A program made the translations under genes and the position numbers. The notes under the pieces were generated by a model that saw nothing but the letters and a program-made list of their open reading frames with translations, ran no database searches and had not been told where the DNA came from. A stretch of 64,000 bases of DNA. Source: Isoetes taiwanensis (lineage: Eukaryota > Streptophyta > Lycopodiopsida > Isoetales > Isoetaceae). The stretch is from assembly GCA_021234155.1 (NCBI GenBank), contig JAJEKV010000008.1:9262445-9326444 (forward strand), written 5' to 3'. Each line of letters opens with the position of its first letter. Position 1 is the first letter of the stretch. This document shows positions 10,420-64,000 of this stretch, one piece after another.

Positions 10420-11090
10420 TTTTGTGTTTGGCTCCCCACTCGACTCGGTGGTGTTTGGTTCGGTTAGTTGGCTGCCCACCCGACTTGGTGGCTCTGTCGT
10501 TTAGTTTTGCTACCCAACCGACTTGGTGGTGTTTGGCTCCCCACCCGACTTGGTGGTGGTTGTCTGCCCACCCGACTCGGTGGTATTTGGTTCGGTTAGT
10601 TGGCTGCCCACCCGACTTGGTGGCTCTGTCGGTTAGTTTGGCTACCCAACCGACTTGGTGGTGTTGGGCTCCCCACCACGACTCCTCCGTGGTTGGCTGC
10701 CCACACGACTTGGTGGTGGTTGGCTACCCATCCGACTTGGTCGGGTCTTTGGCCCGCCGTTGTTGCCTTCCCACCCGACTTGGTTGTGTTTGGCTCCCCA
10801 CTCGACTCGGTGGTGTTTGGTTCGGTTAGTTGGCTGCCCACCCGACTTGGTAGCTCCGTCGTTTAGTTTGGCTACCCAACCGACTTGGTGGTGTTTGGCT
10901 CCCCACACGACTTGGTGGTGGTTGGCTGCCCACCCGACTTGGTCGGGTCTTTGGCCCGCCGTTGTTGGCTTCCCACCCGACTTGGTTGTGTTTGGCTCCC
11001 CACTCGACTCGGTGGTGTTTGGTTCGGTTAGTTGGCTGCCCACCCGACTTGGTGGCTCTGTCGTTTAGTTTGGCTACCTCCTCTACCGAT
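10420..11090. repeat. Minisatellite built on CCCACCCGACTTGGTGG
   Basis: A tandem array of variants of CCCACCCGACTTGGTGG, spaced by TTTGGCT, GTTGGCTGC or GGTTCGGTTAGTTGGCTGC. Longer blocks recur: the string beginning GGCTCCCCACTCGACTCGG occurs near 10430, 10793 and 10997, and GGTCGGGTCTTTGGCCCGCC occurs near 10740 and 10943. This shows a higher-order period of about 200 bp in the second half. The array gives open frames in several phases on both strands, which is a by-product of the repeat. Confidence 0.85.
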
Positions 11091-13832: not shown

Positions 13833-14333
13833 GACAAGAAGCAAAAAGAAGGAAGCGCGAGAGCGGATTGAAAGAAGTTGGAGGGCGGAGGGCGGAAGAC
13901 GAAAACGAAGTGAGGCGAAAAGGTTTCAAGGCACACGACTGTGGCGAAGGGGCATGATGAGAGGGGAAAAGGAACCGTTGATGGTGCCAGATGGCAACAG
14001 ATCGGAAGAGGATGATTGAGAGGCAAAATTTTGGCTAAGTCCCAGAGTAGTGAAGGGAAGGCAGATGAACGGTGGAGATAAGTCGTGAAGGAACGGTAGG
14101 ATGTGACAGTGTGGCGAAGGTACAAATAATAATGATAGACGTGTGTAAAAGGAAGGGATAACAATTAATTCAGGCAACTCGCAGTGGGATATCATAAAAG
14201 AGAAGTGTCAGACAGGACCATGGCTAGATATGCGGCGGAAGAAAAGATTCTGGAATTAGAAATGGCCTTGCATTGCAACCACGTTAGCAATGTGTTGATT
14301 GGTCCACGTCGGCAGAGCTCCAAGCGGTTGGGC

Positions 14334-16708: not shown

Positions 16709-19700
16709 TTACAAATTTAACAAGAACGAGCGGTGAGTATCCACTGCTCTAAAATAAGGACCTAAAGTCAATGGTGGTAGTTGCAGTAATGAAAGGAAAT
16801 CAGATGCATAAATCCCAAAACTATTTCTGATGTGTGCATATTCCGGGCAGCTCGTAAATACATGTTCCTCATCTTCAATGTGGCCTGTTTCACACACCTT
16901 GCATATGCGGTCTTCAGGCTGTGTATTTGTCCATCTCCCTAATTCGATTTCGAGTCTATGAGATCCCGTTCTATAACGGGCCAGCAGGCTTCTTTGTTGT
17001 TTAGGTAGACTTGCTAACAGGTAATTCTGACTTTCAATAGTGACCACTGGATTCACGTTCTGTTGGTACTGTATCATCCTTTTACCAGGATCGGCCCACA
17101 AAATATCAATAGCCTGCTTCTCAACCAGAGATCGAACTTCCTTCTTCTCGGCTGGCCATGATGTGATGCCCCATCTGAGCGCCCATGCCTTGAGCTTACT
17201 GCTCCAATCCGACTGCATTAGAGCTATATGTGATAGGCGATCGTCATCTTGCTCATTCACCCTGTTGAAAAATTGATTGCCTGATACAAACTCTCTAATT
17301 CCAGCGGTAACAGCCCTACCTCGGCGAGCATGATTGAGTATGGGATTTGCGACCTGATACCAAGCTCTTCCCGGATGAACAATTTCTGAACTGTTTCTAC
17401 CTGTTTCCACTGTCTGGCTGAGATACCGGCCCCCCAGATTGGAGCGCCATAGAGCACAACCGTCTGGACAAGGGTCTTGAAAAGAATATTCTTCAAATTC
17501 CAATCTACGAGTGATGCTTTGCTGCATTTAGACAACATGCTATACAATGCAGCCTTTCCACCTGTGACTCTTCTGTTTATGCATGTTTTCCAATTATAGT
17601 TTGAATCCAAATCAATCCCCAGGTACTTGTAAGATTCAACAATTTCAAGCATCTCACCTTTGTATGTGAAATTTGGTCTCTCCCGAGATCCAAATACCAT
17701 GACTTTTGACTTTGATAAGTTGACTGTCATTTTCTTAGCTGCACAAAAAGTCTCCAAATGATTGAGATGTTCCTGCAATGTTTTAGCTTTGTTAGCAATA
17801 AGCACCACGTCATCAGCATAGAGGAGAAGCTGAAGAATATAGCCGCCAAGCTTTGTCCCAGTTAATGATCTGTGACGAAGCCAATCGTCCAATTCATCTA
17901 TATAGATGCCAAATAGGGTTGGGGAAAGAGGGCATCCCTGCCTCACCCCAATCGTGCTCTTCAAAACTGTGTCCAAATTTTTTGAAATGGTGATCAGCAC
18001 CTCAGCATATAATTGAGACACTGCCTCTCGGAGCTCTTGAGGAACTCCAACTTGTGCTAATCTATCTCCAAGGTTTCTACGAGGGACCGTATCAAATGCC
18101 TTGCTAAAATCAATGAATGCCAAGTACAAGGATATATTAGGTGCTTTTGCCTTTTCGATTACAGCTCTGAGTGTAAGGACATGATCTAACGTATTGTGAT
18201 CTCCTCTGAAACCGGCCTGGCATGGTGAGCGTGCTCTTGATTGTTCTGCCCAGTTTCCAATTTTGCTCTCCAACAGGCTGCCAAGCACCTTAGAGAATAT
18301 GCTACCAATGAGAATTGTCCAGAAGTTTCCTGCCACTCTTGGATCCCCACCTTTGTGGATGGGATGAACCCGGTTAAGCTTCCAGCTTTGAGGAAGCCCC
18401 TGGGTAAGACTAGCATTCAAAATATCTGTAAGAATTGCATGTGTTCTCTCTCCACCCCATTTCAGAAGTTCCATGCATAAATTGTCAGCATCTGTGGCTT
18501 TATTGTTTGCCAATTTGGCTAAACAATGTTTAACTTCGGATACAGTAAAAAGATCCACTTTTGGAGCTATATTAAGCATGCTTGTGGCGCCTTCTTTATC
18601 ATAAATATCTCGGACTAATTTAAGCAAAGCCTCACTATCTGGGATATTATGGGCATGATTTCCTTTTAAGGTGTTCCAGAACCTTTTAGGCTACTTTTTT
18701 AGCTGGTCAGATAAAGCCTTTTGCTTATCATAAAAGTAAGAGCGCTTTTTTTGCCTTATAAGGCGTTTATACCAGGATGGTTTGCAAATACAGTGTTGAG
18801 GTAGTTTATTGCGAGCTTCTTGGCAATCCACATCCCACCAAGAATTGCAGGGCACGCCTTTCCTAGGCTTTTTGGTGAGTCCAAAAACTGATGTAGCAGC
18901 TTCTGTAATAAGCTTTTGAAAAAGTGCAGCATCCTTCTCTATTTCCCCTGTCCATGTAATGTCCACAAGCAGCTTTTCCAAATGGTCTTTGTATATTCCA
19001 TGATGCTCATAATCTATCCTTATCTTTGGATAAAATATCTGATTTTGTCTCACTGATTTAACATGTGCTTGAAACACTATGTGAAGGGGCGTGTGGTCAG
19101 ATTCTGGTAGGAGATTACCTACACAAAAATCTAGGATCTGATCTTTATTTTCGGCTAAAAGGTAATCAATTGAGGATGCTCCAGCGTGGTTATGATAGGT
19201 AAACTTGCCTGAGGACTGGAATGGTTGCTCCATTGATAATTTTCAAATGGCATACAGTGCAAAGCTCCAAAAGTTTCTGCCCCATTTCATTCGAGATCTG
19301 ATCCTCGGAGAGTCTATTGTATCTTGGGGTCTACAAGCTCATTCAAATGCATATCGGAGATCTTCAAATACATTTGCTTGTTGGTTACTTGTAACGACTA
19401 TTGAAGTCTCCTAAACAAATATCCCGCCTTGAGATGCATATTGCATGATATCCCGAACACAAACTTTCATATGGATTGTCCTTATCATATTCGGGCCTAT
19501 TATATATGTGCGAAGAATCAGGAGCAAAGTAGCAAATAGCAAGGAATATTGGTTGTCCATTCTCACCAATCTTGATCCATATATACTGCTGTTTTGAGTC
19601 TTTCTTCAAGATTTGAATATTAAGAACAGATTTTGATTTTTTATATATAGCAATACCTCCACAACCACGGCCTGCACCTGGTTTCTTAATGTTCCATACC

Positions 19701-38658: not shown

Positions 38659-39477
38659 CCGTAGCGTGCGAGGACCCGCTAGATGTTCCGCAGATTGATA
38701 GCCCACTATTCGTCTACTGGCGACCATCGATTTGAGGTCCTTGATTCTGCAAATAATCTATCAATTCTCATCCTGTAATAACCCATCAATTCTCAGCTTG
38801 AAATCAGACAAATTTGTAGTTTTTTTTCCCTCTGATCTCCAGCTTTAAAGCAAAACAAAGTCATAGTTCTAGATCGGATTTAGGTCAGGTTTTAATTGAG
38901 CAGAAACCACCAAATAGTGATGATGTAGTATATAGAGAATGATTTTTTACCTTCCAAAAAGAGCTTTGATGTTGTATTGAGGTCTGCTGACAGGAGAAAT
39001 CGATGTAATTTTGTTTCTTCTTTGATAAATTTTGAGCAGAATAAATTAATGCATCATGTTGCTTAATATGCATTGTTGTGCAACAACAAATGAAGATCGA
39101 TCATCAGCTTTATGAATATAAGATAAATCAAAAAACAAATTTATGGGTCTTGAGTGCATGTGAAGAGTTTGAGGATTGACGTGCCAAACTGTCTCTATGA
39201 TATGAAAGGGATCGCATCTAGATAATTAAGTAAGCGGCAGGTCGAAAGATCAAAGACTTGCAAGACGCTTCCGAAACAAATTGAAGAGGTCGTAGGTTTG
39301 CAAAGGGACCAGATTTGTCCTCACAAGGGCATTTCGATAAATATAAGAAATATAAGGGTATTTTGATAGATAATCAAAATACAGGGGTATTTTTCAAAAT
39401 TTCCCTAAAGAATTCTACTATATTGAGTAAAAGTTACATGAGTATATACCAAGTAGACACCATTTGAAGAAGAGAGG

Positions 39478-39583
39478 GATAACACCCTGGAACGAGGGTG
39501 TTATGCCTATTATAACAAACGAGGGCCGGAGGCTCGAGTTTGTTATAGTAGGGCATAACAGCCGAGTTCTAGGGTGTTATCCG
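39478..39583. repeat. Long imperfect hairpin (foldback)
   Basis: The sequence from GGATAACACCCT to AGGGTGTTATCC folds back on itself. The outer arms pair GGATAACACCCTGGAAC with GTTCTAGGGTGTTATCC, and the inner arms pair GCCTATTATAACAAACGAG with its imperfect complement CTCGAGTTTGTTATAGTAGGGC. The loop is only a few bases (about 39530). It lies just outside the right end of the MULE-like termini. It could be a tiny MITE or a small-RNA precursor. Confidence 0.7.
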
Positions 39584-41944: not shown

Positions 41945-42004
41945 CTTCAATCCCAATAAGCCTCGCAAGTTTTTATAAGGCCTGAGGGTTTGAAGAAGCA
42001 AGCA

Positions 42005-45000
42005 ATGGAAGCTGTGCATTATTTGGTAGGGCTGTTTATGATTATCACGCTGCAATGTGGAGCTTTGAATCGAGATGGGCAGGCTTTGATTTCTGTGAAA
42101 CAGGCTATGGTGGATGAAATGGGGCATTTGAATGATTGGGTCCGAACTGATCCTACACCCTGTGGTTGGACAGGAGTGCAATGCGATTTTTCTTCTGAGA
42201 TGGTGGTCTCTTTAGACCTATCAGATATGAACCTAACAGGAACTCTATCTCCAGTTATTGGGTCTCTTGCTGGCCTTGTGAATCTGTCTTTAGACCTCAA
42301 CAATCTAACAGGAAGCTTGCCTCAGGAGCTTGGAGCTCTTCAGCTTCTCAGATCTTTGAATATTTCCCACAATAACTTTGGCCATCAATTTCCTGCTAAC
42401 ATTTCAAGCCTCAAGCTGCTGGAAAATCTTGATGCATACAACAATAATTTCTCGGGTCCTCTGCCACCGGAGTTGGGGAAGCTTCAAAATCTGAAACATC
42501 TTCATCTGGGTGGGAGCTATTTCGAAGGACCCATTCCTCCAGAATATGGAGAAATGAAGCATCTCAAATATATGGCTCTTGCAGGCAACTCTTTATCAGG
42601 AAGGATACCTCCGGAGCTTGGCAACCTTTCTCAGCTCCAATATTTGTATCTGGGTTACTACAACATGTATTCAGGAGGGATTCCACCGGAGTTTGGCAGA
42701 TTATCGAATCTGATCAGATTAGACCTCTCTTACTGTACCCTCAATGGCACGATTCCGACCGAACTGGGGAATCTCAAGAAATTGGATTCGCTCTTTCTGC
42801 AGATTAATTCTCTGGTGGGCATTATTCCTGAAGAACTGGGGCTATTGACAAACCTCAAATCCTTGGATCTTTCTAATAATCAGCTCAGTGGCACAATACC
42901 TGCCAGTTTTAATGCGTTGCATCAGCTGGAGCTAGTAAGTTTTTTCCGGAACCAACTGCATGGCAGTATTCCTGAGTATTTTGGAGACCTGCCCAATCTG
43001 CAGGTATTGTTTATGTGGGCTAATAATCTCACGGGGCCTATTCCGGCAAACCTAGGAAGGAACAGCAAGCTTCTAAAGGTTGATATGTCTTCCAATGACC
43101 TAAATGGGACTATTCCGCCGGATCTTTGCCATGGAGGAACGTTAGAGATTTTGATCTTGTTGGGCAATCAGCTTACAGGGCAACTTCCTGAAAGCTTAGG
43201 CAATTGCACTAGTCTTTTGAAGATGAGGCTTGGAGATAACAAACTAACAGGTCCTATTCCTGCCGGATTCCTTCAGCTTCCAAATATTGAAATGCTGGAG
43301 CTTGTGGGCAACCAGATCAGTGGTGATATTGGTGGGAAATTGAATGCTCCCAACCTAGAGTTTCTTGATTTTTCCGAGAACCAGCTTCAAGGTGTCATTC
43401 CTGAGAGTATTGGAAATTTGGTAAGCCTCAAGAACCTATGGATTGCCAGAAATAATCTTTCTGGCACCATCCCCAAAAACATCAGCAAACTTGGTCAGCT
43501 CTTTTCTTTGGATCTGAATCATAATATGCTGTCTGGTTCTATTCCTGCTGAGATTGGCAAGTGCAAGGGATTGTCTACCATGGATCTGAGTGGAAATATA
43601 CTGACTGGAGAGATTCCTCCTCAACTTACAAACTTACAGGTTCTTGATGTGTTGAATCTGTCCAGGAACCATCTCACTGGTAGTATTCCTCAGCAACTAG
43701 AGATCTTAACCAGCTTGACCACTGTGGATTTCTCTTACAACAACCTTTCTGGTCCCATTCCTTCAAAAGGCCAGTTTGGTTACTTCAACTCTACTTCTTT
43801 TGTTGGCAATGAGGGGCTGTGTGGACCAGAGATCAGCAGGCCTTGCAATGCAACATCTTCAGAGAATGTAAGTGCATTGCATGGCAGAGTTAAGAGCACT
43901 AGAGGTCTTCTTGCATGGTTGGTAGGTGCCCTCTTTTCTGCAGCATTGTTGGTTCTTGTGGTTGGTGTCTGCTGCTTCTTTAAGAAGTATCAGCAGTACA
44001 TTTATGGTCTGTTCAGAAGAGAGAGCACTGTGAGGCCATGGAAACTCACTGCTTTCCAGAGGCTGGACTTCAATGCAAGCCATGTGCTGGATTGCCTAAA
44101 TGAAGACAATATTATTGGAAGAGGAGGATCTGGCACTGTGTATAAGGGTGTCATGCCTTCTGGAGAGATTGTTGCTGTCAAGCGCTTATCGCCTTATGGC
44201 AAGAAAGGTGTATCCCATGATCATGGCTTCTCAGCAGAGATCCAGACCCTTGGAAAGATAAGGCATAGAAATATAGTCAAGTTGCTGGGATGCTGCTCAA
44301 ATCATGAGACCAATGCACTAGTGTATGAATTCATGCCTAATGGCAGCTTGGGTGAGCTCTTGCATGATAAGAAGGGAGCGAATCTGAACTGGCCAACGCG
44401 GTATAAGATTGCACTTCAGGCTGCCAATGGCCTTTGCTATCTGCACCATGACTGCTCTCCCTTGATAGTGCATAGAGATGTCAAGTCCAACAACATTTTG
44501 CTGGATTCCAACTTTGAAGCTCATGTTGCTGATTTTGGGCTTGCAAAACTCTTCCTGGACTCAGGGAAGTCAGAATCAATGTCAACCATAGCTGGTTCAT
44601 ATGGCTACATTGCTCCAGGTTTGTTTTTTTCTTTACTTTTCTTGTCTTTTCTTTCCTGTATATGTATTTAGAAATAAGTGTTTTCATCTTCTAAACTTGA
44701 AGCTGTTTGATGTACAGAGTATGCCTACACTTTGAAGGTCAACGAAAAGAGTGACATTTACAGCTTTGGAGTGGTGTTACTGGAACTTGTAACTGGAAGA
44801 AGACCTATTGAGTCCGAATATGGAGATGGAGTAGACATTGTTCAGTGGGTGAGGAAGAAAATCCAAACAAAAGATGGTGTTCTTGAAATCATGGACTCTA
44901 GAATGGGAGATGCAAATTTGCCTGTACATGAGGTTATGCTTGTTCTAAGAGTTGCATTGTTATGCACGAATGATCTGCCAGTGGACAGGCCAACAATGAG

Positions 45001-49343: not shown

Positions 49344-51408
49344 ATGACTGATTATCCTAAGGAAAAAGAGATTTTGGAAATGCAGCCTAGTAACCAGAAC
49401 TTTCCCAACTCACATTGGTCTAAGCAAAGTGGTTGGGAGTTCGCAAAATGCATTGATGAAGTGGTTAGACAAGATTTGCAAGAAGATCTCCATAGGTGTG
49501 ATTTTTTTGCTATGTCATTGGATGAGGCAACCGCAAAAGATAACTCGTCTTGGCTGTGTATGACAGTATACTACGTGACCCTCTTTGTTAGACGAGCATC
49601 TTATGTTAGGATCATGCGCTTGCAAAGAAATGCAACTGCGGAGAATATATTTGCAATTGTTGACGAGAGTTTAAAGACAGTTTTGGGGCTTTCAACACTT
49701 GATATTGCAAGAAAGCTGGTCTGCATTGGCATGGATGGTGCATCTGTAATGCAAGGATGTCGTAATGGGCTTACAGTTAGGATTCAAACTACATTGGCAC
49801 TTTATGCTCTTGGTGTGCATTGCATGGCTCATAGAATGAACCTTGCATACAAAATTGTAGACAATTTTGATTGCGTCATGAAGATTGAGAGCTTAATAAA
49901 GGATGTTTATAACTTCTTCTGTCGAAGCTCAAAAAGGTATGTTAGGTACTCTTTCTTTTGGTTATTACATTCGTATTAGTTTATAAGTTCTTTTTTTGAT
50001 GGATTTTTTTATCCTAGATTCCGCAAGTTTAAGAAGATGGCATTAGGGTTGACTAAGGGTAACAAGTTGTTGAACACTGTTAATACGAGGTGGATATCCC
50101 TCTATAAACCAGCACAACGCCTATATTTGGAGTACCCTTCCTTGGTCGGGTTAATGGATAAGTTGTCATCAAAAAGTGGGCAAGACTCAGAGAAACCAAT
50201 ACAATTACTTGCTCAACTCGTGGACCAGTCTAGCTAAGGCATGTTTTTGCATTCGTTCCAGTCTATTTTGACATTGGTTCCTTTTGCAGGCATTCTTCCC
50301 ATGTTAAAGGAGCTGAACTTCTTAACAAAGCTTGCTCAAAAACGCACTATGTACATTTCAGAGTATGTGCGGGCTAGACAGATGGCATGTCTTGCATTTG
50401 ATTTCATGTATCCTGTCGCTGGTCCATATGATGCAGAGAAATTTGTGTTATGGTATGAGTTACTTGATGTAGATGGCAATAAAAGCATTTTGGAGTTTGA
50501 TGCCAACGAGAAATTATGCATGAAGGTCCACTCTAATTTAGTGCAGGTACTATTTATTTATGCAGCATTTCAATCTTGTCTTTTATATGTCTTATTGTTA
50601 CATTATCTAGTAGACGAATTTGCAGATGTATGCACCAAAGAAACGTATTCGAGGTCGTCTATTGCGACGAGCTCCCATAACCAGAGATACATTTGCTGAA
50701 ATAGTTACAAATGTGCGCAAAAATCTGCATGATATAGCAGGTACTTTAGCTAAAGAAATACGGGATCGTTTTCCAAGGGATGAAATCCTGGATGCAATGT
50801 CTATTGTGTATCCTCAGTTCTGGATCAGCCCACAAAGTGATCATCATAAGCGCTTAAAGCAGATTGATTTCAAAAGCAATGTTCGTACTTTAAAAGATTA
50901 TTTCTCTAAGCCTGTTATTGTAGAATCAGAAACAATTTGCGGCATCATAGATGGGAATGCATTGATGGAACAAGCACAATGTTTTGGGGAAACTATGTGG
51001 GTGCAATGCGCACAACTAGAGGAGCCCAAGGAATTTGGTTCAATTACTAGACTTTGGATGCTGCTTAGCAATAGTCAGTTTCTTCGAGATCGAATGCCAG
51101 AGTATTTTAAACTTGTCCATCTGTGTCAAACCATGATTTTGGGCTCTGTGGAGGACGAACGAGTATTTAGCACCATGAATTATTTGAAGAATAAGGTCCG
51201 CAATAGGCTCGAGAAGAATTTGGATATTGCTTTACGATCATACACATGCAATTACACTCTCAAGGATTTTCCATTTGATAGAGCGTTAGCTTTGTGGGAT
51301 TCAACTTCAAGAAGAGAGAGTCAAGCAGGATTGGAGATTGCAGGAAGTTCTAAGTCTTTAGATTCATCAAGTGGTTGGAGCTTTCTACCAGATTCTGCAA
51401 GTTCTTGA
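49344..51408 (+). pseudogene. hAT transposase (ZNF862/DUF4371-like)
   Basis: Three exons, 49344-49936, 50018-50546 and 50626-51408, with GT-AG introns. The joins SSKR|FRKFKK and VQ|MYAPKK keep the frame. The first exon has the RNase H-like core with FFAMSLDEATAKDNS and CIGMDGASVMQG, the latter holding the second catalytic D, followed by HCMAHRMNLAYKIV (the C/H block). The second exon carries NTVNTRWISLYKP. The third ends in the hAT dimerisation domain: LCQTMILGSVEDERVFSTMN, then NRLEKNLDIALRSY. The only visible damage is TAA at 50235-50237. No BED zinc finger precedes the core, so an N-terminal DNA-binding part is missing or lies in unrecognised 5' exons. It would cut and join the element's CAGGG ends. 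Confidence 0.85.
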
Positions 51409-55798: not shown

Positions 55799-58276
55799 AT
55801 GAAAGGCCAATTTTGGGTGGAGGTGCCTAAGAACTGCTTTCTCTACAAAAATCAATATAACCAGAAGGAACAGGTCGATGAGAATGCTCTTCGACTTTCT
55901 GGTGCAATGAATATTGATCTTTGAGCATGTGGGAAACTCTATCCCATCGACCCGATCACTAGAAGACCTTCTGAATTTCATTCTGCGTCGGGGCTTATTC
56001 TTTTTGCCTGTAAGGGTAAAGAAGGTCTGCTTGGATATTGCAATAATATTTCCAGTCATTCTGATGCGCATTTGAGAACAATGTATACTCAATTGTGTGG
56101 AGTGCATTGCATTATGGTAGCTCACTGTAATTACCTCCAACAGTGTAACTATTTCCTAACCAACAGGTCTAAGAATGCAGATGACTTACAAGCTTCCAAT
56201 CAAAGGTTGCTCAAGGAGGTGGAGTCCCTTAAACAAGGATTGAAAAGGTGCTCTGAGGACAATGACAAACTGGAGAGGAAAAAGAAATTGAAAATGACAC
56301 CATTGGGCATGAGGGAGAGGAAAAAAGAGCTGAAGGCCCTATATGTACTTGCTCTTGGTGGTGGGGGCTCTAGAAGAAAAATCCACGCTATCAAGATCTG
56401 GTGGATCCTACTATAGCTGAAAAGAAGAAGAGAAAACCTTGTAATATTACTACTCTGTTAAAAAAGTTAGTAACTAAAGATGATGTCATAGATATGTCGA
56501 AGCTTCCTGGAGCAAACCACTTAAGAAAAACTGTTGTTGAACAGGTGCTTGCTGAATTGGGAAAGAGTCAAACTCCTGATAGCATGCAAGAATTATGTGA
56601 TAATGTGGGTATCAGTCGACAAGCTTACATTGCTCTTTTTAGATGTTTGCAGGATGGTATAAAGCAACAAGGTATTACGAAGACTATACTGCCAAGACTC
56701 AGTTATGTCAGGGCAAGCAGAACAAAGAGAAATGCAGAAGCATACGAGCATTTGGGAGAGATGTACCAGATCACCACATCTGTTCACTTGGGATCACTAT
56801 TCACTGGGAAAAGTAAGAAGAAGGGTGGCTCAGGGAATGATCTCTTTGTTCTTAATGAAAAAAATAATTGTTGGATGGATCTATCTAAAATGCTTCTTCT
56901 GTTAATTCGTTTCTATGTTATGAAAGTGGAAGAGTGTGCACGGAAACTCCAAATTGCTATAAAGTTGGATGAGATAGAACTGATCAAAGGGGAAAAGTAT
57001 GAGAGGGTCTCTTTGACATTAATGAATAGGGCATTGTCAAATTCTGATAATGAGAAAGGCAAGTTCTCTGTTCAATCAGAGGACCATATTTGGTAGATAG
57101 GGATCTTTCAAGTGCCTGAAGAAAATCATTTGTCCTTCAGTGGGTCTTTCAGCAGACACTTATTCCTACTGTCATTGCTGCACATGGAGTTGGAGATTAG
57201 CTTCCTTTCCTGGCTATGGAGATTATGAGGTTGAATGGCATTTGGCTGCCGATCAAGTGCATGTATAACATGAAACATAGTTCTGGTAAGACCACCCACG
57301 CATGCCCTTACTGTTTGTATGCTAGGATAGATGATAAGGGGAAGGGAATGAGTACTCTGGAATGTGACCAGGATGTTGAACCAAAGCGTGAAAAGGAAGA
57401 CGATACTTTGATCCGTGTCCTTGCAATTCCCGTGAAGAGAGTACACATCTGCACTCTCTATGCCTTCTTAAGAATAGTGGATAAGATGGTGTATGTGAGC
57501 ATTCTCTTTGCTCATATTGAGAATGTACTTTCTGATATTTGTCTTCATGGTAGTGACTATAAAATCTGGCAAGATCCTAAGAAGGGAGGGAAGGTGCCTT
57601 GTAAGCCATCTATGGGCGGGTGAAAGCGAAAAGATTTCCGCCTTGTACAAAATTACGTAGGAATGGATCCTTGCCAGCTGGTAAGTGGGAAGGGTACTTG
57701 CTGGTAGCAGAAGATGACCGCACTTCACGTGGGAGGGCAAAACTGAAGAAAATTAAAGCATGGCAGAACAGCAGTCTGGTAGTTTTAATGGCAGAGAAAA
57801 AAATGGTGGATGGAAAGTTAGATGAATTCAGAACAGTAATAACTGATTTCACGAAGTTGTATATACAAGCATCAGGAGAATGCAATGTTACACATTACAT
57901 TCATATACTTTACGCCCATGGCTTGTGGTTTGCCAAACAGTACGGGAGCTTGGGAATATGGAATACGCAGGGAATGGAGAAGTCACATAAACAAGCCAAG
58001 AATGTTTTTTTTAGGTTCATCCAACATCGAGGTTCGTGTGGTAATTCATTGCAACAGATGTGTCAATGGTTCTATAGAAGGATTATCTGCAAGCTAGAGA
58101 AAAAAGATAAGGCAAAGCAAGACATGACTTTGGCTATAATATTGAGGAGAAAAGCGCAGCAAGAAAAAAGAAAGCAGATATGGTGTAGATCTAGTGCAAC
58201 ACAAAATTTAAGAGAGTGGAGATCCACAAGGATCAGACAAGGTAGAAGATATGCTTCTGGGGTTTCGAATATATGA
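55799..58276 (+). pseudogene. Unclassified transposase-like gene (element 3)
   Basis: From ATG 55799 one frame runs to 56416 through a TGA (about 55922). After a one-base shift it continues from 56401 to 57096, then, with more shifts or introns, as 57216-57623 and 57620-58276. Blocks in order: a coiled coil (LKEVESLKQGLKRCSEDNDK), a basic region, RASRTKRNAEAYEHLGEMY, an IKLDEIELIKGEKYERVSLT block, a CPYC finger (about 57300) with a later HICTLYAFLRIVDKMV, and a final region with GIWNTQGMEKSHKQAKNVFF and a basic tail. I associate this layout with repetitive, transposase-like proteins of unknown class and cannot name a family. DDE residues cannot be assigned. It is convergent with the H3-like gene. 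Confidence 0.5.
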
Positions 58277-58416
58277 GCAAATCCATATTAATAGTATAAC
58301 AATGTTGTGCATAATATACAACTCTAATGCGCGTAGGATGCTATTTTGGTAGCATGGGCACGATGCGAATTAGATTGGCATTCAGTAATGAGTAGTCATT
58401 AATTCATACCATGGCC

Positions 58417-58526
58417 ACGGTGCGAATATTATTTATCCTATAATTAAATAACAACTTATTTCGCACCGTGGCCACGGTGCGAAACTGGTTGTCATTTAGT
58501 TATAGAATAACTAATATTCGCACCGT
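58417..58526. repeat. 110-bp palindrome between two convergent genes
   Basis: Centred at 58471/58472, the sequence is a near-perfect inverted repeat. The core is TTCGCACCGTGG and its complement (perfect over 24 bp). The arms extend outward through AACAAC, TTAAATAA, TATA and ATATT blocks to ACGGTGCGAATATT at each outer edge. It can form a 55-bp-stem hairpin. It sits between the stop of the transposase-like gene (58276) and the stop of the H3-like gene (58655), so it could end both transcripts, or be a small foldback insertion. Confidence 0.85.
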
Positions 58527-58654
58527 AATTTCTAAACATAAGTTTATACCTACAATTTCTAGGTCGATACAGATATAGAATACATATAACCAAACCAAAT
58601 GATACACAGACATAGTGCAACTAAAAGTTTTTTATTAAGAAAAAAATCAACACT

Positions 58655-59719
58655 TTACATGCCTCGAAAATATTTCGTCAAAGCAACATCCCTCTGCATG
58701 ATCGTCACCCTCTTTCCATGCACGGCACGCTTCACACAATCTTCAAAGAACCTGACCATGTGATTCTCAGCTGCCTCGTGCAGAGCATCAAGGGCATTTG
58801 CAGTAAATCGATTAACCTTTTCCGGCATTGGAAAAGCTCTGCCAGAATCGTGGTACCTCCTCCTATGCTCCTTCATATTCGAGTACCTGTTATGAACATC
58901 CTCCCTACAGGTTCTCACCATAGTGAAGTTTGAAAGTACCCACTCCACGTGATTCTTTAAGTGCCGGATCTCCCGAATCCATCTGTACTTTGGCTTAAAT
59001 GGCTCGCCCTTCTTGTTGAGCTTCGAAGGGCCTTTACACAGCACATGTTTCTTCTGCAGCTGCTTAAGCATGGATGATTTCCTTTTACACCTACTGGATT
59101 TCCCAAGCTCAATGTTAGTCTGATTTGGAGGATCCAGCACTGTTTTCGGGTTACGGACAACATTTAGAATAGCATCTGGAAAAGGAATATCTTGAACAAG
59201 AATATCCTGAATAGGAATATCCTGAATCAAAATATCCTGATGATTTCCAGCGTTTGACTGAGCTCCTGCTCCTGGCCAGATTACGAAGGATTCGAGTGTG
59301 TCGTTCAAGTTGTCAGCTCCTATCGAAGGAAACGGCAACTGGGTCTCTGGTTTAATTACAACGTCGACAGAAATGACGATGCAATCATCGGGCACAGGCA
59401 CACCATGACAAACAGCTGCCTGCACGAAAAGACTTTCACCGACTAAATTGCCTGAGGAAAAAAGATATACATGCCTTGGCTCGGACAACGTGTCTCTGTA
59501 TATCTCGTCTACTGCATTGGCAACATTCTGAACTACAACGTCCAGACTGTCTGCTGAACAACACCCTGTTCGGACTGCTCCGTATTGGTTACCTGATGCA
59601 TTGGCATAGTTACTGGCGCTGGCCTCAGAATTGTTACCATTTTGTTGATCCCCAGACAACGCCTCGTTTTGATGAGTTTGGTTGCTGACAACGTTAGATC
59701 CTGTGGTAGCACTACTCAA
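58655..59719 (-). CDS. Protein with C-terminal histone H3 fold
   Basis: A 354-residue frame. Residues ~1-200 are low in basic residues, with a hydrophobic-acidic repeat (ILIQDIPIQDILVQDIPF) and no recognised fold. Residues ~205-243 are basic. Residues ~244-354 match histone H3: KYRWIREIR (H3 REIRRYQKS), a helix, then RFTANALDALHEAAENHMVR, FFEDCVKRAVHGKRVTIMQ and a final D--L---FRG (H3 ...ALQEA, LFEDTN, AIHAKRVTIMPKD, RIRG). The loop before helix 2 is about 17 residues longer than in canonical H3, as in centromeric H3 variants. Canonical tail motifs (ARTKQT, ARKS) are absent. The frame starts at TTG. An ATG seems broken by one T (CATTGAGTAG for CATGAGTAG), and a TATA box (TTATATAG) lies just upstream. 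H3 forms nucleosomes with H4. Whether this one does is unknown. Confidence 0.65.
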   Translation of the reverse strand: MSSATTGSNVVSNQTHQNEALSGDQQNGNNSEASASNYANASGNQYGAVRTGCCSADSLDVVVQNVANAVDEIYRDTLSEPRHVYLFSSGNLVGESLFVQAAVCHGVPVPDDCIVISVDVVIKPETQLPFPSIGADNLNDTLESFVIWPGAGAQSNAGNHQDILIQDIPIQDILVQDIPFPDAILNVVRNPKTVLDPPNQTNIELGKSSRCKRKSSMLKQLQKKHVLCKGPSKLNKKGEPFKPKYRWIREIRHLKNHVEWVLSNFTMVRTCREDVHNRYSNMKEHRRRYHDSGRAFPMPEKVNRFTANALDALHEAAENHMVRFFEDCVKRAVHGKRVTIMQRDVALTKYFRGM

Positions 59720-59744
59720 TGAGTGGAGAAGGCTGATAAGTATC

Positions 59745-59752
59745 TATATAAT
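59745..59752 (-). promoter_or_regulatory. Candidate TATA box of the H3-like gene
   Basis: TTATATAG read on the minus strand lies about 25-35 bp upstream of the apparent (damaged) start codon near 59719. Farther upstream, at 59859-59882, is the imperfect palindrome TTCGCACTGTAG/CCGTGGTGCGAA. Confidence 0.35.
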
Positions 59753-59858
59753 GTCTTGAGAACAAGGTTTTAAGAAGAATATATCGAACAAAGAAATTTA
59801 TTACAAACCGTTGCTACGGTGCAAAACAAGCAATCAATAGACAAAGAAATGGAAGCAG

Positions 59859-59882
59859 TTCGCACTGTAGCCGTGGTGCGAA
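59859..59882. repeat. Imperfect palindrome in the H3-like gene promoter region
   Basis: TTCGCACTGTAG followed by CCGTGGTGCGAA: the same 24-bp palindrome as at 58460-58483 with a few changes. A further partial copy (CTACGGTGCAAA) is at about 59815. Confidence 0.65.
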
Positions 59883-60039
59883 TATATGTCATATACAAGC
59901 ATTGATAACTAATATTTTGCAGGTGGCGACAATGAAGTAAAACATAACTACGAAAACAAAATAAACTGAAACTAATGGGAATGTTGGAAATAGCATGATA
60001 CAGATATGTAAGAAGTGTCTTTGCATTAATTGAACTTGG

Positions 60040-61563
60040 TTACAACTTCATTTTCTTAGAGACATGAAGATCATCAGAAACATCGACTTTTTCCAGGTCA
60101 GACTCCTGCAGACCAACATCCAACAGGTACATAAGACAAGGAATCTGTGGTTCCCTCTCTCCCAGGTCAGTCGAATTGTAGCCTTATCCACCCCGGACAA
60201 GGCCAATGCAGCTCTATTGGCAGTGACAGAATACATACTAAACCCACCAAAAACATGGGTGGCGATATCTCTCCTGACAGCCACCACTCGATCATAATTG
60301 GCAGCTAACGGGTGGTGACTACCAATCAACGAGAGGGCCTTCAGTTTCAAAACCTCCTCAGGTCCGGATGGGCTGTACTTGGAATGGAACACAACAATTT
60401 CCCCCAGGTAGCCCATATAGTGTGCAATACTTCCATCTCGGCCAGGGGTGACTCTATCATGTCTGGCACAATAATCGTCAACAAAAACTTCCTGCGCAAG
60501 CAAAGTTCATTTGCAACTTAGCCGACTACCAAACTTAATAGGTACTTAGCAAAACAAACAAAGTTATAGCTAGCATACCTCCACTTCGTCAGATTCACTC
60601 TAACCTTTTTGGTAGCAATGTTGATAGAAGACCTGGAGGAGCTTGATTCCCCTTTTGATTCAACTTTTTCGGTATCCTTAGCTCCTGAACAACTCCCCTC
60701 GAACTTTACTTTTGAGACTTCGTTCAAGCCCATTTCTGCCATCTCAAGAACCCTATCAAATGCAATTTTTGGAGTTACTGAAGTTCCATCATAAGTTAAA
60801 GCTTTGTTCAGCTCCCTTGGCACTTCCGGCTCGAAGTCGATGAAGTCGTCTAAACCTACAACAAAAGCATAGATCTGTCCAAGGACCTCGCCTTCCCTCA
60901 AACCAGTGACCAAAGATATATCGTGGAGAAGCAGGTAGTCCTTCCCTCCCACGGTAATTGGCAGGGCTTCCGTGATTCCCCATCTGTCAAGTTTATCTTC
61001 ATGCGCGGCTTCATCTTCCTGCTCTTCATCGTCGTCCTCATCTAGCTTTTCCACCAGTTACTTTTTTATCTGCATCAAAAATCTCCTCGACAGGTGAATG
61101 ATGTTCTGCAATAGCCCTCGCTTGTGGTTGCTCACTATTTGTTTGTGGCACCGAATAGATCATGTAAGTAGCAAATATGATGTCAATTGGATATAAATTT
61201 ATCCTTCCCATCCTTCTCACATAAGTCAGAAGTAGCCTCTTGAACGACCTTCGAAGCTTATCATGATCAACTTTGGGAAACAGCTTTAGAAAGGACTTCA
61301 CACTCAATACAATCTTTCCCGTTGATAAAGAAGGACGCGCTTCAGCATATGCCACCGCCATAAAGCTTTGAATGTACTGACCATACACGTCACTGTGTTT
61401 ATTCACCTAAGATATTATATCCATTGTCAGACAAAAGTTATTGTATACTACAGTAGCGTCCATTGCTGAGCAAACTCTTCTGGGTATGATAGGCTATATG
61501 CTCAGCTTCCTAACTATATACCTGAAACTGTTCCCACACCTTCTCTGACCTGGCGCTTGCCAT
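60040..61563 (-). pseudogene. Unrecognised three-exon gene linked to the H3-like gene
   Basis: ATG at 61563 starts exon 1 (61563-61522, MASARSEKVWEQFQ). Exon 2 is 61406-60605 and exon 3 is 60491-60040, with GT-AG introns. Exon 2 carries VNKHSDVYGQYIQSF, a helical block with KLRRSFKRLLLTYVRRMGRI and, after a one-base shift in an A-run near 61056, an acidic stretch (EKLDEDDDEEQEDEAAHED). Then come ITVGGKDYLLLHDISLVTGL and a basic S-rich end. Exon 3 has EVFVDDYCARHDRVTPGRDG, then YSVTANRAALALSG, and, after a shift, a charged end (LQESDLEKVDVSDDLHVSKK). I know no family. It lies 320 bp upstream of the H3-like gene on the same strand. The start is chosen because it splices cleanly into exon 2. Confidence 0.5.
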
Positions 61564-61684
61564 TGCAGAATTGTATCGCCTCATTTAGAGCAATAAAAAC
61601 TGTGATTGCCTTTATCAAAGTGGCTACGAGGTCACCGCGCGAAATACCAATTTCAAGTATCCAAAAGTGGTATATATCGCGCGT

Positions 61685-61755
61685 GGCCACGGTGCCAAAA
61701 AGATATAATACGCCTACAGAAACAAAGAGGGTTTTGCACCATGGCCACGGTGCGA
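61685..61755. repeat. Two GGCCACGGTGC palindromic motifs upstream of the three-exon gene
   Basis: GGCCACGGTGC occurs exactly at 61685-61695 and 61743-61753. The second copy is the centre of a 22-bp imperfect palindrome (TTGCACCATGG/CCACGGTGCGA, 61734-61755). The same 11-mer is at 58414-58424 and 58470-58480. Confidence 0.75.
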
Positions 61756-62142
61756 TATTTATCGAGGATAAAAGATAGACAAAGGCAAACAACAATGGAA
61801 GCAAATATTGGTTTTAGCCTTTATTTTAAAAGGCATGGCATGTACACATGGCCTAATAATAGGAAGTGGTGAAGATATCAGGTAAAATAAGTATCAGGAG
61901 AAAGCAACGGACACAGAGCGAGTTCTGGGAAGCGAACAGATGAGCGAAGAGAAGGTGACATGAGTTGAAGCGCCCATAAACAGAATCAGATTGGAGATCG
62001 AAAGAAAAGGGGGTAAAAAATCAGTCGGAGCAGAGAGGATAGTGGCAGGATTTGAATCAGAAAACAGATTGCAGAAGGAAGCTTGGGTTGTCGGGAAAAG
62101 TGCAGCAGAGATCAGTGGGTTCCATCCCATTAACATCAATAG

Positions 62143-62154
62143 TGGTATCAGAGC
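62143..62154 (+). promoter_or_regulatory. Copia primer-binding site (initiator-Met tRNA)
   Basis: TGGTATCAGAGC is the standard plant Copia site complementary to the 3' end of initiator methionine tRNA, 33 bp before the gag region. Confidence 0.9.
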
Positions 62155-62175
62155 TTGCAAGATATAGCCAGCTGA

Positions 62176-64000
62176 TTGGCATTGACATATCTTAACAATG
62201 CTGAAGTATTTGATGGAGACATTGGCTTTCAACTTTGGAAGGCCAAGATCATGCAGGCCCTCAACGTGGATAAGCTATGGGATTTGGTTGATCCAACCAG
62301 AGCAAAGGAAACTCCGCCCAAATCTAAAGTGAAAGCGGAAGCATCAGAGCCTGAGGAAGCTAAGGAAGATCGGATTTTAGATGACGAAAGGGAAGAGATT
62401 GCCAAAGCTATAATCATGGCAAAGCTGGGTGTCGATACTGTGCTTGAAATTCAACATAAACAGGCCAGGAAAATATGGAAATAGCTTTTAGAAAGATATG
62501 AGAAGAAGACGTCGACGCAGATCCTGGAAATGAAATTTCGCAACTTGCAATTCAAAAAAGGTGATGATTTGAGAGGTTTAATACGAAACCTTAGATTACT
62601 GTTGCATGATTTGTAAGGAGCTGGAGCTCATTATAATGAGCAACAGAAGGTATTGGCCTTAACCAGAGCATTTCAAATTTCGTTTAAAGATCTTGCTATG
62701 TTAGTCAGAAGGACTACATCCACTCTAGATGAAGCAATAGAAGCGATTAGGACAGAGCTTGTGCAAGAGGTTTTGCTGAAACCAATACCAGTGGAGGCAG
62801 AGGAACACCCTATTACCTTGTATGCAGGAGAACTGAGTGGAGAGAGAGGTCGAGGCCGTGGAAGAGGCAGAGGAAGGTGGAGAATAGAGATACAGTGCTA
62901 CGGATGTAAGGAATTTGGTCACATCAAGGCGGAATGTCCAAATCGAGGGAAATGGAACCGAGGACATGGTCGTAGTTCATTTGGTCGTGGAAGGGGACGG
63001 ACTATGGTGGCAGCAGTTGGAGAGATGTCTGAGATGAAAGCGTCGACCGTGGGAATTCTAAGAAGTAAGTACTTGCAAACCTTTTTCCAAAAAATGAGCA
63101 TTGCATCTCAAAATGTTGAAAAGAAAATTTTGAACAAAACTAATACCTTGACTATAGATTCTGGAGCTGAAGTCTCCATAGTGAGCTCACCTGATATGTT
63201 AAAATGCATTGAGCCAAGTGTGGATTGCAAAGCTGTTCGGATGGGCAATGGAGCAATGCAGAAGGTGCTTGGAAAAGGGAGTTTGGATATTCTAGTTAAA
63301 GGCAAGAATGTTTTGAGTTTGCCAGATACATTGTTTATGCCAGGAATGCTGTTTAATTTAATTTCAGTCGCCCATTTGGTAGATAGTGGATATGATTTAT
63401 TTTTTCATAAGTATAGGTGCAAATTCATTAGACGAGGCATTAAATTGTTTGAAGCTCAAAGAAGAGAAAATCTGTTTGAATTGGACGTCAATGATACCAT
63501 CAATAAGGTATCTCCCCTCGATAGTATAAGGCTTTGGCATTTGAGGTTAGTGCATGTCAACTATAACAACATTAAAATAGCAAAAAAGTATAATCTTTTG
63601 GATGAGCTTGATTATGAGGATTTTAAGATTGATGACGTGTGTGAAGCTTGCATGTTGGGAAAATAAAATCGAGTGGCATTTAGAAATAAAGGAAGAAGGG
63701 CGCATAAATTACTTGAACTAGCGCATTCGGATGTTTGCGGACCTATGCAGGTTGAGAGTAGAGGAGCAAAATCTTACTTCTCTACTTTTATTGATGATTA
63801 TAGTAGACGTACTAAATGCTATTTTTTGAGGACCAAGGATCAAGTATTTGATGCATTTAGGTTATATATTGCGGAAGTTAAAAGGGAGACATTATTAAAA
63901 ATTAAATGTCTAAGGTCTGACCTTGGTGGAGAGTATAGATCATCTGAATTTTGTAGGTACTGTCAAGTACGAGGGATACAGAGACAATATACATGCAGAT
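62176..64000 (+). pseudogene. Copia Gag-Pol polyprotein, partial
   Basis: One frame runs from 62176 to the window end, broken by TAG about 62482, TAA about 62613 and TAA 63664-63666. It starts TTGGCATTGACA, so an ATG is missing (a T inserted in ATGGCA would explain it). Gag: FDGDIGFQLWKAKIMQAL, then a RGRGRGRGRG stretch and one zinc knuckle CYGCKEFGHIKAEC (about 62900). Protease: TIDSGAEVSIVSS (catalytic DSGA, about 63160). Pre-integrase HHCC: LWHLRLVHVNYNNI and CEACMLGK. Integrase core: LELAHSDVCGPM (first D) and LRSDLGGEY (second D). The sequence ends before the catalytic E and the reverse transcriptase. Confidence 0.88.

Follow-up and report, generated by a model that had tools for sequence, protein, structure and literature searches.

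A 64,000-nt stretch of a contig from Isoetes taiwanensis (hereafter the window) contains an open reading frame (ORF) whose identity as a histone H3-like gene is as good as certain. This ORF is located next to a transposase-like gene and a gene from a family without a known match, and the chances that it is an accessory gene of a decayed DNA transposon are about even. The fuller interpretation, in which a plant DNA transposon has decayed here that once carried three or more genes, namely a probable DDE transposase with a RAG1/Transib-like order of motifs, an H3-like histone whose long N-terminus is new and a third gene without a recognized family, is in our judgement evenly balanced between right and wrong. 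An earlier note on this DNA had suggested that an H3 gene was captured by a mobile element, and the transposase-like neighbor, a relative of that neighbor in the databases and the palindromes between the genes all agree with the suggestion, although the support comes from the genomic context alone.

The H3-like ORF covers positions 58655..59719 on the minus strand, in agreement with the coordinates given before, and consists of 354 codons followed by a TAA stop codon, without an ATG codon at the start. The first codon is TTG, the earliest in-frame ATG is at residue 218, and an upstream exon that could supply the ATG was not found when sought by eye. The stop-free run is 362 codons long, as compared to a maximum of 236 codons in 60 simulated 64-kb sequences built from the base statistics of the window itself; it ranks fifth in the window, with four other runs being longer. 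A TATA-like sequence (TATATAG, 59744..59750, minus strand) located 31 bases before the TTG codon may serve as a promoter element, and an AATAAA (58631..58636, minus strand) about 20 bases past the stop codon is a putative signal on the other side. The ORF is present in a single copy within the 64-kb window.

The Pfam profile PF00125 (Histone) matched residues 212-348 of the ORF over profile positions 7-118 of 122 (E = 2e-11; 44.6 bits versus a curated cut-off of 26.4), which assigns the protein to the histone H3 superfamily. A search against PDB yielded 176 distinct sequences at E ≤ 1, the best 60 of which were H3 or centromeric H3 chains, with E = 1.4e-9 for H3. In the alignments, the histone core begins at helix 2 and ends with the final RG (residues 304-353; 58661..58810, minus strand). 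Residues 304-354 could be aligned to plant H3 without gaps at 25/51 identical positions, and the alignment score of 120 was reached in none of 5000 shuffles, while the score of 34 for the helix N/helix 1 stretch was reached in 14 of 5000. For the same core, comparisons with further reference histones gave 23/51 identities to Arabidopsis CENH3, 22/51 to CENP-A, 20/51 to Cse4 and 10/51 to H4; the counts for H3 versus H4, together with the PDB matches, identify the ORF as being of the H3 rather than the H4 type.

These profile, PDB and identity values bear out the H3 fold that the earlier note had placed at the C-terminal end of the protein, and the motifs on which it was based (REIR, AL-EA, FFED, AVHGKRVTIMQ-D and FRG) are all present in the H3 order. 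Both the HxKRVTIM segment and the D after it, which function in loop 2 and at the contact of one H3 copy with another, are conserved. Also the longer loop before helix 2 that had been described was recovered, as 21 additional residues in the alignment to plant H3, contained within a stretch at the end of helix 1 and in loop 1 (residues 278-301; 58817..58888, minus strand). From the alignment and the shuffle tests, we thus describe the protein as an H3 fold with a helix 1/loop 1 region that is longer by 21 residues and with no demonstrable H3 tail. A structure model of the ORF, built from one sequence, had a mean pLDDT of 39.8, which is too low to interpret.

The N-terminal extension of 217 residues (59069..59719, minus strand) had no family match of its own besides the start of the Histone match (residues 212-217), and contains QDI-type repeats of 5 residues (15 bases) at about 59174-59240. 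Neither ARTKQT nor ARKS is present in the sequence of the ORF. The alignment of residues 200-245 to the H3 tail gave a score of 23, which was equalled in 2197 of 5000 shuffles, so that the tail taken by itself lends no support to descent of this region from an H3 tail. The tail and helices N/1 taken jointly scored 47 against H3 (equalled in 6 of 5000 shuffles), and the score of 35 for residues 1-200 against the whole of H3 was given no weight (130 of 5000). The profile and PDB matches, the alignments and the shuffle tests support the previous description of the N-terminus as unlike a histone tail. A canonical H3 is ruled out by the length of 354 codons versus about 136 residues and by the lack of a recognizable modifiable tail; by identity counts, the core is no nearer to CENH3 than to H3.

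To estimate the influence of selection, we simulated neutral decay from plant H3 down to the observed core identity, using substitutions only and random codon choice over 117 codons. Only 44 of 1000 runs remained free of stop codons, which argues modestly that selection probably maintained the H3-like protein during much of the time over which it diverged. The transposase-like gene, by contrast, is interrupted along its roughly 825 codons by in-frame stop codons and by several changes of frame, some of the latter possibly being introns. No relative of the full H3-like ORF was detected at E ≤ 0.001 among 863 candidates, in a search where proteins below about 195 aa, and hence canonical H3, were outside the length range. 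The last 137 residues also yielded no relative, with no candidate sharing three words.

The transposase-like pseudogene is located at 55799..58276 on the plus strand, with the ATG at 55799 as the proposed start codon. It is colinear over 55874-57638 with a 663-aa protein from ENA, here called P0001, which comes from a contig of 2801 bases, has 29 member sequences and showed no Pfam match above any cut-off; an open frame then continues to 58276. A tblastn search with P0001 matched segments 55874-56395, 56398-57150 and 57135-57638 in three frames (E = 4.8e-112), and with the joined reading as the query P0001 was the sole protein at E ≤ 0.01 (E = 2.2e-99; 7988 candidates scored), with 216 of 546 aligned positions being identical. 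The motifs KLDE, WHLAxD, CxxC and RVHICTL are common to the two, whereas HILYAH and GMEKSH lie past the end of P0001. In the three-frame translation, GYGDYEVEWHLAADQ (57212..57256, plus strand), the counterpart of GYGSYEVEWHLAVDL in P0001, may contain the second catalytic Asp. In RAG1, the motifs appear in the order acidic, CxxC, HxxxxH and E, and the CxxC motif has a zinc role; by analogy, such a role may be proposed for CPYC (57303..57314, plus strand; CIYC in P0001). The segment that runs from HILYAH, an HxxxxH motif, to GMEKSH, whose Glu is proposed to be catalytic (57902..57979, plus strand), aligned weakly to RAG1.

Direct similarity to RAG1 was low. The Pfam family RAG1 (PF12940) matched the C-terminal piece at E = 0.039, below the cut-off and next to an unrelated DotA match at E = 0.032. 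In PDB, 13 of the 15 matches to this piece at E ≤ 10 were RAG1 chains (E = 0.14-1.1), which are near-copies of one another and not independent, and the top match was an unrelated oligoribonuclease (E = 0.0061). RAG1 was not among the Pfam matches of the joined reading at E ≤ 5, and no match to a hAT family was obtained for the gene. A two-row profile of the transposase-like protein with 663 positions, from which the C-terminal motifs were left out, had two matches in PDB, both to one coiled-coil protein, and the model of P0001 from three rows had a mean pLDDT of 34.9, too low to interpret. Since the direct RAG1 support is weak, we refer to the gene only as transposase-like; its motifs suggest a transposase, probably of the DDE type. 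The transposase-like neighbor of the earlier note has a relative in P0001, but the gene is broken by stop codons and frame changes.

The third gene (60048..61563, minus strand) was present as previously described and had no family match, but is visible solely as ORF pieces, at 61038-61406, 60518-61054 and 60048-60503. Together with a possible first exon at 61522-61563, these may be read as one gene in pieces, the join being approximate. Neither the pieces nor the approximate join yielded a match in Pfam.

A 24-bp palindrome, TTCGCACCGTGGCCACGGTGCGAA, and variants thereof were identified at positions 58346, 58403, 58460, 59802, 59859, 61675 and 61733, with 6, 3, 0, 6, 4, 7 and 3 mismatches, respectively, and at a spacing of 57 or 58 bases inside clusters. 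Cluster 1 (58346..58527; units at 58346, 58403 and 58460 and a half unit at 58517) separates the 3' end of the transposase-like gene from that of the H3-like gene; cluster 2 (59802..59882; units at 59802 and 59859) lies upstream of the H3-like ORF and cluster 3 (61675..61756; units at 61675 and 61733) upstream of the third gene, confirming that the gene spacers have palindromes in common. Cluster 1 includes a 110-bp inverted repeat (58417-58526) centered on the perfect copy of the palindrome, and the single-strand DNA fold of 58400-58530 had a z-score of -10.2. At ≤3 mismatches over the inner 20 bases there were 3 matches, solely in 58405-61754, as compared to a mean of 0.00 in 100 shuffles. 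At ≤9 mismatches there were 10 matches in the window versus a mean of 2.83 and a maximum of 12 for 200 shuffled palindromes; the three extra matches were at 61620 and, at chance level and far to the left, at 14103 and 23107. Because the shuffles reach 12, the number of matches does not decide the matter by itself; what does is the presence of close copies together with their clustering and spacing. No unit was found between 23131 and 58345, and hence none just to the left of the transposase-like gene. The palindromes contain CACGGTG, which we take to resemble a RAG1/Transib-type heptamer.

Searches of viral contigs identified no relative of the H3-like ORF, the C-terminal piece of the transposase-like gene, P0001 or plant H3, and no copy of the exact palindrome, but these negatives say little since plant H3 itself found nothing there. 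Prokaryote genome contigs contained no relative of P0001 or the H3-like ORF.

Several other features were recorded in the window. A Copia-type element (61757-64000), with an ORF at 62653-63666 and a primer-binding-like TGGTATCAGAGC at 62143, adjoins palindrome cluster 3 and may have truncated the H3-carrying unit on its right-hand side. A reverse transcriptase ORF is located at 17257-18627 on the minus strand (RVT_1, E = 2.2e-31), and an ORF at 50620-51408 on the plus strand, with no Pfam match at E ≤ 5, was by eye presumed to resemble the C-terminus of a hAT transposase. A plant leucine-rich repeat (LRR) receptor kinase ORF of 893 codons at 41990-44671 on the plus strand has a kinase domain that is cut short (Pkinase, E = 9.5e-35, profile positions 3-167 of 263); this ORF and the Copia-type ORF mark the window as plant DNA. 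Repeats comprised a 106-bp inverted repeat at 39477-39582, which is 80% self-complementary, and a nested tandem array at 10422-11078 with a unit near GTTTGGCTACCCACCCGACTTGGTGGT and periods of 27, 38, 97, 132, 202 and others.

We infer that the three genes belong to one element, as suggested by the palindrome clusters that precede each of the two minus-strand genes and also occur on the shared 3' side. Against this, a single copy was seen, a comparison of the left and right flanks gave no convincing terminal inverted repeat, element ends or target duplication, no palindrome is located just to the left of the transposase-like gene, the similarity of that gene to RAG1 is weak, and the H3-like ORF has no ATG at its start and yielded no relative in the searches. 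It is conceivable, if rather doubtful, that two elements adjoin here: a decayed transposase-like element at the left and a palindrome-bounded unit at about 58346-61756 that holds the H3-like and third genes and was moved by another enzyme. The palindromes flank these two genes on both sides but not the left side of the transposase-like gene, and two ends joined head to head could account for the 110-bp inverted repeat. However, palindromes of the same kind are also found between the two minus-strand genes and are therefore not only end repeats, and the transposase-like frame ends 70 bases before the first palindrome, which places cluster 1 in its immediate 3' flank.

An unlikely alternative is that the ORF is a divergent H3 variant of the host, such as a centromeric H3, or a pseudogene, and is located by chance amid transposon debris. 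Longer loop 1 segments and fast divergence occur in CENH3, the start codon of the ORF is missing, and the core identity to Arabidopsis CENH3 is close to that to H3. On the other hand, the core is not nearer to CENH3 than to H3, the 217-residue extension with 15-base repeats is part of a single long open frame, and the palindromes are present on two sides of the gene and recur beyond the next one. Pack-type transduplication of a host gene fragment with no role for the element is very improbable, for although gene capture by plant transposons is described as an established process (PMC13317346), a core of about half identity without a stop codon was rarely retained in our substitution-only simulation, and if the capture were recent, near-identity with the H3 of the host should have persisted.

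If the H3-like gene indeed serves a DNA transposon as an accessory gene, its product might pair with host H4 via the conserved helix 2-loop 2-helix 3 region, and the two could assemble the DNA of the element into variant nucleosomes or tetrasomes. Such chromatin might escape silencing by the host, as proposed because the N-terminus lacks ARTKQT and ARKS, the sites for silencing marks, or it might leave the ends accessible to the transposase. Either the N-terminal extension or the third protein could bring the H3-like protein to the palindromes. That extension, third protein or palindromes would guide variant nucleosomes in this manner is conjecture.

The protein resembles canonical H3 and CENH3 in having REIR, helix 2, the KRVTIM loop and the final RG in order, but differs from canonical H3 in its core of 25/51 identities, its longer helix 1/loop 1 and the lack of a recognizable ARTKQT/ARKS tail. 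The transposase-like gene has its acidic, CxxC, HxxxxH and E motifs in the same order as RAG1/Transib and matches RAG1 locally, though weakly, near the E of the latter, but there was no significant match and none above the Pfam cut-off. Elements of this type are described as having short terminal inverted repeats, 7-bp signal-like ends and a 5-bp target duplication (PMC4411706), whereas no termini were found here.

In the fungus Pyrenophora tritici-repentis, a hAT transposon encodes a transposase, an unknown ORF and an H3-like ORF (H3L), and the long form of about 5.6 kb has terminal inverted repeats, with 10 long and 16 short copies reported (PMC3538342). This published precedent makes the capture of an H3 gene more plausible and less novel. 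The gene content has the same three parts, but that element is a fungal hAT, whereas here the host is a plant, no hAT family match was obtained and the histone has an extension of 217 residues. Genes related to silencing have been reported from other transposons, including the VANDAL regulators, SET in HarbingerS and MuDR, and TET/JBP in fungal elements (PMC12730594). The element described here would resemble these as a DNA transposon with a gene acting on silencing marks, but their products are regulators or enzymes and the H3-like protein would be a structural chromatin protein.

No H3-carrying transposon from a plant was found in the literature searched, which was mostly outside subscription journals. 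If the linkage holds, the new aspects are thus the plant host, the apparently different transposase and the strongly extended H3, and the element would be the second H3-carrying DNA transposon found after the fungal one, from another kingdom. We consider it possible, if rather doubtful, that plant and fungal transposons of unrelated superfamilies independently took up H3 and an unknown partner gene and use an altered H3 for their own chromatin, here aimed at palindromes 57 bases apart. Such convergence would point to a benefit of a private H3 for these elements, and one could then test whether transposons modify the nucleosomes along their own sequence, either as a means of evading silencing or for guiding integration.
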